Below, one piece after another: positions 1,689-6,108 of a stretch of DNA of 62,434 nt. The position numbers and the translations under genes are program-made. Numbering within the stretch: position 1 is the stretch's first letter; each line of letters starts with the position of its first letter. This DNA is from Oscillospiraceae bacterium (GTDB lineage Bacteria > Bacillota > Clostridia > Oscillospirales > Oscillospiraceae), in contig SVMK01000004.1 of the NCBI GenBank assembly GCA_015067465.1, positions 1-62,434 of the forward strand, written 5' to 3'. The notes under the pieces were generated by a model. That model worked only from the letters and a program-made list of their open reading frames with translations, was not told the DNA's origin and ran no database searches.

Positions 1689-1717
1689 TTGACAGCGTTT
1701 TTCTTTTCAGTTACAAT
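1689..1717 (+). promoter_or_regulatory. Near-perfect sigma-A promoter of the pre-pot RNA
   Basis: TTGACA, exactly 17 bp, then TACAAT: one mismatch from full consensus and among the strongest promoters in the window. Transcription would start near 1724. No coding region follows for about 400 bases, so the product is an RNA or a long leader. Confidence 0.85.
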
Positions 1718-1723
1718 ATTCGC

Positions 1724-2012
1724 ATCTCAATTGGGAGAGTAAAAAAGAGTCTTCCGAGCAAGATAATTTGACCGCCGGAGCGCAGCGTTTTTTCCCCTGC
1801 GCGAAGGCCAAGGCCATACGGACAGCCGGGTCGAATGCCGCAAGCACCGCGGAATGCGGTCGGCAACTTCTGTTGCCTTATTGATTTGAGCTTCAAAGCT
1901 CAGTTTTATAAGTTGGTTACTTAAAACCGATGCCCAAACGGCATGCAACTTGTGAAATGGTCAATAAGAGTAGTAAAAGTAATCTTTGCTATATAGACTC
2001 TAAAACCCATTG
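1724..2012 (+). ncRNA. Long multi-stem structured RNA ahead of potABCD, family not identified
   Basis: No credible ORF is present, but the ends pair. CAATTGGG (1728-1735) pairs with CCCATTG (2006-2012), AGAGTC (1746-1751) with GACTCT (1996-2001), and AGCAAGAT (1757-1764) with ATCTTTGCT (1982-1990). TTGACC (1768-1773) pairs with GGTCAA (1959-1964). Inside are hairpins GCGCAG/CTGCGC (1780-1802), GGCAAC/GTTGCC (1862-1877), GAGCT/AGCTC (1888-1901), and AAGTTG/CAACTT enclosing ATGCC/GGCAT (about 1910-1951). The shape is a closed multibranch domain of about 290 nt driven by its own strong promoter. I see no T-box, SAM, cobalamin, lysine, tmRNA, SRP or RNase P signature. The clostridial raiA-type RNA is one family worth testing, but I cannot confirm it. 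Confidence 0.6.
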
Positions 2013-2067
2013 GGATCCGCGTATCTCTCCGCAGCGGCGGACGGGAATGCAAAAACACGGATTTTTC

Positions 2068-2108
2068 AAGTGATATGCCCGAATTCGGTGCATATCACTT
2101 TTTTATTT
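2068..2108 (+). terminator. Intrinsic terminator between structured RNA and potA
   Basis: AAGTGATATG pairs perfectly with CATATCACTT, with an inner CCG/CGG stem, followed by TTTTATTT. It ends the RNA begun near 1724 only 22 bases before potA. As no other promoter is evident before potA, read-through here may feed the pot operon. Confidence 0.8.
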
Positions 2109-2129: not shown

Positions 2130-3257
2130 ATGAAAAAGATCATCGAGCTGAAAAACATTTCCAAATCCTTTGACGGCGAGCTGGTGCTGGATCACATCGA
2201 CCTCAACATCTACGACAACGAGTTTTTAACGCTGCTCGGCCCGTCCGGCTGCGGAAAAACAACCACGCTGCGCATCATCGGCGGCTTTGAGCAGCCCGAC
2301 GGCGGCGACGTTGTTTTCATGGGTGAGCGCATCAACGACGTTCCGCCCCACAAACGCAATGTCAACACCGTGTTCCAGAAATATGCGCTTTTCCCGCACC
2401 TGAATGTTTTCGAAAACGTTGCCTTCCCGCTGCGTGAGCGCAAGGTTCCCAAAGCGGAGATCGAGGAAAAGGTGAACGAAATGCTCGCGCTGGTCAAGCT
2501 CTCACAGCTGGCCAAGCGCCGCGTAACGGAGCTTTCCGGCGGTCAGCAGCAGCGCGTTGCCATTGCCCGCGCGCTGATCGGCCATCCCAAGGTGCTGCTG
2601 CTCGACGAGCCGCTCGGCGCACTGGATCTGAAATTGCGCAAGGACATGCAGCAGGAGCTGAAGAAAATTCAGAAAGCCACCGGCATCACCTTCATCTTCG
2701 TCACCCACGATCAGGAAGAAGCGCTCACCATGAGCGACACCGTGGTCGTTATGAGCGAGGGCCGCATCCAGCAGATCGGCACCCCCATCGATGTTTACAA
2801 CGAGCCGAAAAACGCCTTTGTGGCGGACTTTATCGGCGAGAGCAACATCCTCGACGGCATCTTCATCGAAGATAAAAAGGTTCGTTTCTCCGGCCACACT
2901 TTCACCTGCGTCGACACCGGTTTCAAGCCCCGCGAAGCGGTGGACGTGGTTGTGCGTCCCGAGGATGTTGATATCGTCCCCGAGGACAAGGGCATGCTGC
3001 GCGGCGTTGTCACCAGCGTTACGTTCATGGGCGTGCACTATGAGGTTATCGTGGACATCGGCGGCTTTAAGTGGATGATCCAGACAACGGACTTTGTGGA
3101 CGTTGACGAGCACATCGGGCTTTATATCGAACCGGACGCCATTCACATCATGGAAAAGAGCGAATATTCCGGCCTTTACGGCGACTATTCCTCTTTCTCC
3201 AACGAACTGGATGAGCTGGACGCGCCCGTTGATGCGGAAACGGAGAGCGAAGAATGA
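2130..3257 (+). CDS. potA: Spermidine/putrescine ABC transporter, ATP-binding protein
   Basis: ATPase that drives polyamine import, 375 residues, cytoplasmic face of the membrane. Walker A is GPSGCGKT at residues 37-44; the ABC signature LSGGQQQR lies near 136-143 and is followed by Walker B LLLDEP and the switch histidine in FVTHDQEEA. The last third is a TOBE-type regulatory domain, as usual for PotA. ATG 2130 is used because an upstream extension from 2010 would run through the terminator hairpin. The gene overlaps potB by ATGA, so potA and potB are translationally coupled. The full potABCD set makes polyamine specificity likely, though the exact polyamine is not deducible. Confidence 0.95.
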
Positions 3258-4144
3258 AGCAATCCGTTCAGTTCCGAAAAGGCCGCGGACACCATTTGCT
3301 GCTCGCGCCGTATTCCGTGTGGTCGGCGCTGTTTATCGTCGTGCCGCTGGTATTTATCGCTTACTATGCGTTCACCGACAATAATTTTGCTTTCACAACG
3401 GAAAATATCACCCGCTTTTTCACCACCAAAAGCAATGTGACCGCCGCGGACGGCTCCGTTTCCGAAGTTCGCACCTATCTGCTGATTTTCATGCGTTCGC
3501 TGAAGCTCTCGGTGATTTCCACCGCGCTGTGCCTGCTGCTGGGCTATCCCACCGCCTACATCATGGCCCGTTCGAGCGACCGCGCGCAGAAAATCATGCT
3601 CACGCTGATTATGATCCCCATGTGGATGAACTTCCTCATCCGCACCTACGCATGGATGACCATCCTGCAGGACACCGGCATCCTCAACGGACTGCTCTCG
3701 TCCCTGCATCTTCCGAATATTCACATCATCGGCACGGAAAGCGCCGTGGTGATCGGTATGGTGTATGACTATTTCCCATACATGGTTCTGCCCATCTATT
3801 CCATCATGGCAAAGATGGACGTCCGGCTGCTGGAGGCGGCGCGCGATCTTGGCTGCAACGGCGTTTCCGTTTTGCGCCGCGTAATTTTCCCGCTCAGCCT
3901 TCCGGGCGTGCTCAGCGGCATCACAATGGTGCTCATTCCTTCCATCAGCACCTTCTACATCTCCCAGAAGCTCGGCAGCGGCAAGTTTTTCCTCATCGGC
4001 GACGCAATTGAGGGCCAGTATATTGCCAACAATCTCCATTTTGCCGCCGCCATGGCCTTCATCCTGATGCTCATTCTGCTCGTTTGCATGTATCTCATGA
4101 AGTATTTCACCAACCGGCATCTTTACGGAGGTGGCGAAGCATGA
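3254..4144 (+). CDS. potB: Spermidine/putrescine ABC transporter permease
   Basis: First membrane permease of the polyamine importer, 296 residues with about six hydrophobic segments, the first near residues 15-37. The EAA loop that docks on the ATPase is seen as [17 protein letters not shown] followed by FPLSLPG. It pairs with PotC to form the channel. Its start overlaps the potA stop and its stop overlaps the potC start, both as ATGA. Length and layout match PotB; nothing is missing. Confidence 0.94.
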
Positions 4145-4971
4145 AGACAATTTCCAGAATCTACACTGCTCTCATCTTTATCTTCCTGTTCGCGCCGATC
4201 GTCATTCTTCTCGTTTTCTCTTTCAACGAAGCGAAGAGTCTGTCGGTTTTCTCCGGTTTTTCCCTGAAATGGTACAGAGAGCTTTTCCGCGACGAAGCCA
4301 CGCTCAGCAGCGTGAAAAACACGCTGCTGCTCGCCACCTCCGCCATGGTGATATCCACCGTGATCGGCACGGCTGCCAGCGTTGGCATCCAGCGGCTGCG
4401 CTCTAAATTCTACCGCAGCGTTATGAACACCGTCACGGACATTCCCATGACCAACCCCGATATCATCACCGGCATCTCTCTGATGCTGATGTTTGTGTTT
4501 GTCGGTCGGCTGTTCGGCGCCGGCACCAGTCTGAATTTCTGGACGATGCTGATCGCCCACGTCACTTTCTGCCTGCCCTACATTATTCTGCAGGTTTTAC
4601 CCAAGCTGCAGCAGATGGATCCCGCCCTGCCCGAAGCGGCGATGGACCTTGGCTGCACGCCGCTGCGTGCATTTTTCAAAGCCACGCTGCCCGAGATCAT
4701 GCCCGGCGTGATCACCGGCGCCATCATGGCGTTCACCCTGAGTCTGGACGATTTCGTTATCAGCTACTTCACCTCCGGAAACGGTTTTCAAACCCTGCCC
4801 ATCCGCATCTACAACATGACCAAAAAAACCGTTACCCCGAAGATGTATGCGCTGTCCACCATTATTTTCTTTGTCATCCTTGCGCTTTTGCTCCTGACTA
4901 ATCTCACAAACAACGACGACGCCAGGCGTATGAAAGAGGCCCGGCGCAACCAAAACCAAACCAAAACCTGA
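4141..4971 (+). CDS. potC: Spermidine/putrescine ABC transporter permease
   Basis: Second membrane permease, 276 residues, with about six membrane segments and the EAA loop EAAMDLGCTPLRAFFKA followed by LPEIMPG. The ATG at 4141 overlaps the potB stop and has GGAGGTGG just upstream; the longer frame from 4084 lies inside potB and is not used. The tail is short, basic and glutamine/asparagine-rich. It works with PotB as the translocation pore. Confidence 0.94.
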   Translation: MKTISRIYTALIFIFLFAPIVILLVFSFNEAKSLSVFSGFSLKWYRELFRDEATLSSVKNTLLLATSAMVISTVIGTAASVGIQRLRSKFYRSVMNTVTDIPMTNPDIITGISLMLMFVFVGRLFGAGTSLNFWTMLIAHVTFCLPYIILQVLPKLQQMDPALPEAAMDLGCTPLRAFFKATLPEIMPGVITGAIMAFTLSLDDFVISYFTSGNGFQTLPIRIYNMTKKTVTPKMYALSTIIFFVILALLLLTNLTNNDDARRMKEARRNQNQTKT

Positions 4972-4992: not shown

Positions 4993-6108
4993 ATGAAAAA
5001 GATTGTCACCGCTGTGCTTGCCGCAGCCCTTATGCTCACCCTTGCGTTCGCCCTGACCGGCTGCGGCGCATCCGAAACGCTCACCCTGAACGTTTATAAC
5101 TGGGGCGAATACATCTCCGACGGCAGCGAAGACAGCTTCGATACCATTGCGGAATTTGAAGCGTGGTATGAGGAAACCTACGGTCAGAAGGTGAACGTGA
5201 ACTACGACACCTACACCAGCAACGAGGATATGTATGCCAAGCTCTCCGCCGGCGCGGTCAGCTACGACGTGATCATCCCCTCCGACTATATGATCGCCCG
5301 CATGGCACAGGAGGATATGCTGCTCCCGTTGAATTTTGACAATATCCCCAACTACAAAAATATCGACAGCACTTTCCACGGCCTGTACTATGACCCCGAC
5401 GACACCTACTCCGTCCCCTACACCTACGGCATCGTCGGCATCATCTACGACGCCAACGTGGTTGACGAAGCCGATGCCACCGGCTGGGATCTGATGTGGA
5501 ACGAGAAATACTCCGGCAGCATCCTCCAGTTCAACAACGCACGCGATGCTTTCGGCACCGCCATGTATAAGCTGAATATCGACGTCAACACCACCGACCA
5601 CGCTGAGTGGGACCGCGCATACGAGGCACTGATGGAGCAGCGTCCGCTTCGCTACGGTCTTGTCATGGACGAAATCTTCAACATGATGGAAGCCGGCGAG
5701 GCCGCCGTCGGCGCTTACTACGCCGGCGACTACTTCACCATGGTGGACGATCAGGCCGAGGATGTTGACCTGCAGTTTTATTATCCCGATCCCACCAACT
5801 ATTTTGTTGACGCCATGTGCATCCCCTCCTGCTGCGAGCACAAGGAACTGGCCGAGATTTTCATCAACTATATGCTTTCCGAAGAACCCGCCATTGCCAA
5901 CGCCGAATACACCTACTACGCCTCCCCCAACACCGCGGTTGTGTCCAGCCCCGTTTACATTGAGGACATGGGTGAGGACGTTCTGGAAGTGCTCTATCCC
6001 CCGATGGACGACTTCTCCGCGCTCTACAACCTCTACGCTTACAGAAATCTGGACCAGGCAACGCTGGATTATCTGAACACGCTTTGGGAAAACGTTAAGA
6101 TCAACTGA
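4993..6108 (+). CDS. potD: Polyamine-binding lipoprotein of the Pot transporter
   Basis: Substrate-binding protein of 371 residues that captures polyamine outside the membrane. A lipoprotein signal ends at LTGC with lipid-modified Cys24. The mature protein starts in the PotD/PotF style with LNVYNWGEYI and contains acidic and aromatic residues of the kind that line polyamine-binding pockets. GGAGGA precedes the start and only 21 bases separate it from potC. A strong bidirectional terminator follows. A related compound cannot be excluded as ligand, but the operon favours spermidine or putrescine. Confidence 0.93.
   Translation: MKKIVTAVLAAALMLTLAFALTGCGASETLTLNVYNWGEYISDGSEDSFDTIAEFEAWYEETYGQKVNVNYDTYTSNEDMYAKLSAGAVSYDVIIPSDYMIARMAQEDMLLPLNFDNIPNYKNIDSTFHGLYYDPDDTYSVPYTYGIVGIIYDANVVDEADATGWDLMWNEKYSGSILQFNNARDAFGTAMYKLNIDVNTTDHAEWDRAYEALMEQRPLRYGLVMDEIFNMMEAGEAAVGAYYAGDYFTMVDDQAEDVDLQFYYPDPTNYFVDAMCIPSCCEHKELAEIFINYMLSEEPAIANAEYTYYASPNTAVVSSPVYIEDMGEDVLEVLYPPMDDFSALYNLYAYRNLDQATLDYLNTLWENVKIN

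Follow-up and report, generated by a model that had tools for sequence, protein, structure and literature searches.

A large structured RNA leader of polyamine genes in Bacillota, most likely a spermidine-binding riboswitch

We analyzed a 62,434-nt stretch of DNA from an Oscillospiraceae bacterium (the window), in which the polyamine uptake operon potABCD is preceded by a folded RNA of ∼290 bases that is common to many Gram-positive bacteria. All features described here lie on the forward strand. The first gene of the operon, potA (2130–3257), encodes the ATPase of a spermidine/putrescine ABC transporter (NF043075, 558.5 bits, above cut-off); potB (3254–4144), potC (about 4138–4971) and potD (4993–6108) are named for their best NCBIfam matches (PotB, PotC and PotD, all below cut-off). 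The sequence-only reading of the region that served as our starting point (the original prediction) had placed a promoter, a structured RNA free of credible open reading frames and an intrinsic terminator ahead of potA, and each of these was borne out. The sigma-70-type promoter, TTGACA-17-TACAAT (1689–1717; TTGACA at 1689–1694, TACAAT at 1712–1717), is kept in relatives: a promoter matching at nine or more of 12 positions was found at a similar distance 5' of the RNA in 97 out of 119 relatives, compared with 3.5% of shuffled controls. It is also the sole promoter-like site across 1400–2400, in agreement with the earlier view that potA has no other evident promoter. The terminator, with its U-tract, spans 2067–2107 (stem 2068–2100) and ends just 5' of potA, the ATG of which is at 2130. 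We found no conserved open reading frame in the leader; its conserved 3' part offers one possible start, which reads ACG in 57 relatives and ATG in 37. Elsewhere in the window we noted a purine riboswitch (RF00167, 30805–30905, 47.9 bits against a gathering score of 37) and a tRNA gene (RF00005, 42053–42136).

The leader is strongly folded, with a minimum free energy for 1724–2108 of −139.2 kcal/mol, compared with −105.8 ± 5.3 kcal/mol for dinucleotide shuffles (z = −6.3). Three helices close it. P1 pairs 1724–1735 with 2006–2016, as indicated by the minimum free energy fold and a permutation test of the closing region; P2 pairs AGAGUCU (1746–1752) with AGACUCU (1995–2001), with compensatory forms among relatives such as AGAGUUU/AAACUCU; and P3 pairs AGCAAGAU (1757–1764) with AUCUUUGCU (1982–1990), swapped in relatives for GCAAAUA/UAUUUGC and GAACUAC/GUAGUUC. 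Cognate 5' and 3' segments of P1–P3 had a mean pairing energy of −21.5 kcal/mol, compared with −16.35 ± 0.31 kcal/mol for permuted partners (118–119 sequences), placing the closing helices 16 SD beyond permutation. These correspond to three of the four nested helices proposed earlier (1728/2006, 1746/1996 and 1757/1982). The fourth, 1768/1959 (UUGACC/GGUCAA), was rejected, since its GACC is used by a core hairpin and the GGUCAA at 1959 is near-constant, with no covariation.

Within the closing helices lies a core hairpin resembling the Rfam family RF02440 (1769–1841), with the conserved loop AAGGCCAUACGGACAGCCGGGUC and closed locally by UGACC (1769–1773) pairing with 1829–1833; its outer pair covaries across relatives (U-A in 49, G-C in 36, C-G in 23). 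An extra hairpin, CCGC/GCGG (1847–1859), follows, mostly in RNAs located 5' of potA, and then P4, GGCAAC/GUUGCC (1862–1877), where covariation is pronounced: both sides were changed in 100 cells, against 26.6 by permutation. P5 pairs CUUAUUGA (1877–1884) with UCAAUAAG (1961–1968) and is near-invariant among 120 relatives, with an alternative CUUAUC/GAUAAG in locus L140. It encloses the P5b hairpin (1886–1903; covarying pairs in A1) and the 11-bp helix P6, which pairs UUUUAUAAGUU (1904–1914) with AACUUGUGAAA (1947–1957). P6 is paired in 96.5% of cells with few changes, and P5 and P6 together are ∼96% paired and almost invariant, so covariation says little on both. Inside P6 are P6b, GGUU/AACC (1915–1928; eight double-change cells against 0.4 in permutations), and P7, AUGCC/GGCAU (1930–1944), which comes from the minimum free energy fold; P5b and P7 carry indels in the large MAFFT alignment. 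A near-invariant joining region, AGAGUAGUAAAAGUAA (1967–1982), is kept even in shortened relatives and is a candidate part of the sensor core. A possible pseudoknot between the P6b loop UUACUUU (within 1915–1928) and the joining segment AAAGUAA (1976–1982) gave a weak permutation signal (z = 2.2).

We searched 1620–2180 against all Rfam families. At E ≤ 10, the only match in the leader was to RF02440 (SpF59 sRNA, also labeled "ldcC RNA"), at 1769–1841 with 53.1 bits over the full model (positions 1–54; gathering score 37.2). The original prediction had not assigned the RNA to a known riboswitch class; part of it matches this Rfam family above the gathering score. A raiA-like RNA had been offered as a candidate. 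The raiA RNA is likewise a large structured RNA of Clostridia, but the region had no raiA covariance-model match even at E ≤ 10. Our leader also departs from the short stand-alone sRNA that is RF02440's type in Rfam: RF02440 models 54 nt, whereas conservation here spans ∼290 nt, includes a 3' domain and goes with a fixed cis position. Among 120 aligned non-redundant loci, conservation beyond RF02440 follows the pattern CUUAUUGAU...UUUUAUAAGUUGGUU...AACC...ACUUGUGAAA.GGUCAAUAAGAGUAGUAAAAGUAA...UUUGCUAUAUAGACUC.

To describe the part that Rfam lacks, we trained a covariance model, R1, on 31 sequences that covered the 3' part and left the RF02440 part out. Searched against the window's genome, R1 matches 1859–2000 with E = 3.4e-27; the window is among the 31 training sequences. 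RF02440 itself occurs once per genome in 49 out of 200 genomes sampled from the window's family (Oscillospiraceae) and in 18 out of 398 genomes across the phylum. R1 recovered all 49 of the former, directly 3' of the RF02440 match, and five new ones, so that the element is present in 54 out of 200 genomes of the window's family; in the phylum sample it recovered all 18 and seven new ones. One family-sample genome (G161, contigs C91 and C83) was alone in having two R1 matches, the second of which (C83:1–133) is at a contig edge. Exact-pattern matches occurred in at least 117 named contigs, with carriers including Paenibacillus, Bacillus, Neobacillus, Kurthia, Acidaminococcus, Phascolarctobacterium, Blautia and Faecalibacterium, and members of the RNA span Bacilli, Clostridia and Negativicutes.

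The gene context of the RNA is highly consistent. We collected 180 distinct non-redundant loci, of which six were scored as contig-edge, leaving 174 that could be classified (two of these, L065 and L120, by visual inspection of the sequence). A polyamine gene lay directly 3' on the same strand in 172 of the 174, drawn from four unrelated gene families: the first downstream gene was speD in 59 loci, a speA/ldcC-type decarboxylase in 47, potA in 45 and carboxynorspermidine synthase in 21. The other two (L026 and L037) have, in place of a recognized polyamine gene, one for an M28-like peptidase lipoprotein. As a held-out test, we took the 12 places found by R1 only, without a recognized RF02440 part; all 12 precede polyamine genes (potA in two, speA in four and speD-speA in six). 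The element at 1724–2107 thus combines a structured, conserved leader with a consistent gene association, as expected of a riboswitch, and it is almost certainly a real, widespread cis-acting leader.

The terminator is a common property of this leader. A strong terminator (score cut-off 25) was found in 78% of 120 relatives, compared with 1.1% of dinucleotide shuffles; ∼20% of relatives had none passing this score. Its 5' arm, CAAGUGAUAUGCC (2067–2079), is shared with an antiterminator, on which the mechanism turns and which the original prediction had missed; in it, the strand GGCAUGCAACUUG (1940–1952) can pair with this arm. Cognate pairing between antiterminator strand and terminator arm averaged −11.8 kcal/mol, compared with −9.8 ± 0.24 kcal/mol for permuted partners (z = −8.4, 94 loci), and the signal held when permuting within gene class only (z = −6.6) and in a stricter non-redundant set (z = −7.8, or −6.8 within class). 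A decoy segment gave z = +1.5 and the reversed terminator z = −3.0, so part of the signal reflects relatedness. The pairing is maintained with changed letters in relatives, as in GCAUACAAACUUG/CAAGCGGUAUGC and CGCAUCAACUUG/CAGGGGAUGCG. As judged from comparative sequence, the terminator and antiterminator are mutually exclusive, as in a riboswitch expression platform. Moreover, P7 and the 3' strand of P6 take up bases of the antiterminator strand, so that the core fold and the antiterminator exclude each other, which predicts an OFF switch if a ligand stabilizes the core.

We hold, with good though not full confidence, that 1724–2107, the 5' leader of the potABCD transcript, is a large attenuator of transcription that responds to polyamine, and most likely a spermidine-binding riboswitch. 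When polyamine is plentiful, the RNA would fold its conserved core (P2/P3, the RF02440 hairpin, P5 and P6); P6 and P7 would then sequester GGCAUGCAACUUG, the terminator would form and transcription would halt ahead of potA. When polyamine is scarce, GGCAUGCAACUUG would pair with the 5' arm of the terminator and block it, and the uptake operon would be transcribed. In the window, the fold with aptamer and terminator beats the antiterminator fold by ∼20 kcal/mol, which means that the ON state must arise kinetically or through tertiary effects outside the energy model.

What the leader senses can be narrowed by the genes it precedes. No speD was found in the window's genome, nor any speA-type decarboxylase by protein and PF01276 searches (the assembly is ∼85% complete), while the PF01276 search did pick up three relatives as well as control genomes. 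Uptake is thus probably the main polyamine source of this bacterium, which would probably depend on it. The SAM-decarboxylase and carboxynorspermidine routes have in common only putrescine and spermidine; spermidine is their common product, and it is imported by PotABCD. The end product, spermidine, best suits an OFF switch that governs uptake as well as synthesis. We consider the leader a probable polyamine riboswitch, and we infer direct ligand binding and the OFF polarity; spermidine is the ligand we would favor, with somewhat less assurance.

The strongest competing explanation is that the leader is a cis attenuator that senses through a protein or other factor, or that responds to another metabolite (putrescine, agmatine, cadaverine, carboxyspermidine or decarboxylated SAM). 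The gene association, the fold and the antiterminator all imply control of polyamine genes in cis, whatever the signal, and to that extent they suit this explanation. On the other hand, a large core with near-invariant unpaired nucleotides, maintained across Bacilli, Clostridia and Negativicutes, resembles a riboswitch aptamer, and the narrow overlap between the two routes together with the fit of an OFF switch to an end product points to spermidine. We regard sensing by a protein or by another metabolite as rather unlikely.

The original prediction had also weighed a stand-alone small RNA, with pot expressed by read-through, against a long leader that attenuates potA. The leader model stood, with a polyamine as the probable signal. 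The idea of a trans-acting sRNA comes from Rfam and from the pneumococcal literature, and it draws on the RNA having its own promoter and terminator. The founder of RF02440, F59, maps to 869510–869591 of Streptococcus pneumoniae TIGR4, between SP0915 and SP0916 (PMC3395615), inside SN20, a 318-nt transcript for which a promoter and a Rho-independent terminator are predicted (PMC2887815), and a study from 2025 lists it as the putative sRNA srn235/F59/Spd_sr49 at 869478–869804 (PMC12323649). A discrete transcript of 318–327 nt, treated as an sRNA in these reports, is thus on record. Yet a terminated leader resembles an sRNA on arrays, and the pneumococcal transcript fits the length of the full leader and not the 54-nt Rfam model. 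Like the RNA in the window, F59/SN20 lies directly 5' of a co-oriented polyamine gene, SP_0916, an arginine decarboxylase according to a title cited in PMC10543277; this comparison uses published descriptions of the Streptococcus member. The comparative data speak strongly against the stand-alone sRNA: the RNA keeps a fixed same-strand site before four polyamine gene families, in both the 172 classified loci and the 12 held-out places, and it contains an antiterminator, of no need to a plain sRNA, that covaries with the terminator arm. We consider it very improbable. Least probable of all is attenuation by a leader peptide (MVNKSSKSN) read from the conserved stretch AUGGUCAAUAAGAGUAGUAAAAGUAA, which is open in the window, begins with AUG and has a frame that stops inside the terminator arm; we rejected it because the start codon is not conserved (ACG in most relatives), surrounding lengths vary and changes track base pairing, not codons.

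With a polyamine riboswitch as the preferred reading, it is useful to compare this RNA with known systems. Selective polyamine riboswitches have long been claimed, and one was convincingly shown only recently, as a rare SAM-I variant (PMC10853860). That riboswitch (Salvail et al. 2023) is a close variant of the SAM-I aptamer, with 13 representatives aligned (PMC10853860), and is a terminating OFF leader 5' of polyamine synthesis genes (ldcC, speE and speB); the leader here is proposed to work in the same way. The two RNAs differ in size, fold and conserved sequence, and neither a SAM-I (RF00162) match at E ≤ 10 nor the SAM-I aptamer fold was found in 1620–2180. The potE (WRC-18-1) and odc1 motifs also adjoin polyamine genes; the former is confined to Veillonella, has weak support and shows no clear expression platform, and the latter is built on a uORF (PMC8632094). 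RF02440 as it stands in Rfam is a 54-nt sRNA, in contrast to a family of ∼290 nt with a 3' domain, an expression platform and four kinds of polyamine genes. The label "ldcC RNA" indicates that somebody had already noted a gene association, and the literature we searched (subscription journals and preprints lay outside it) held no description of RF02440/SpF59 as a polyamine switch or riboswitch. Our best reading is that a polyamine riboswitch class has gone unrecognized here, its Streptococcus member having been treated as a small RNA. It seems reasonably likely that this is a widespread second class of spermidine/polyamine riboswitch, structurally unrelated to the first, ∼290 nt long with shortened natural versions, and controlling uptake along with biosynthetic genes of three kinds across Bacillota.

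With its presence in over a quarter of the sampled genomes of its own family and its spread over three classes, the element is far more common than the SAM-I variant, and it offers a testable answer to how polyamine uptake and synthesis are balanced in many Gram-positive gut and soil bacteria. The pneumococcal RNA F59/SN20/srn235 may also deserve a second look: its strong defect in lung (Tn-seq fitness of 0.05; PMC3395615) might stem from deregulation of the arginine decarboxylase gene instead of the loss of a trans-acting sRNA.

Finally, we noted two much-shortened relatives located 5' of speD (L234 in genome G393 and L236 in genome G418), which have apparently lost the RF02440 core and P4–P5b. 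Both retain a P3 helix (GCAAAUAUUUU/AAAAUAUUUGC), ACUUGUGAA and AAUAAGAGUAGUAAAAGUAA, hinting that these parts may form a minimal core.
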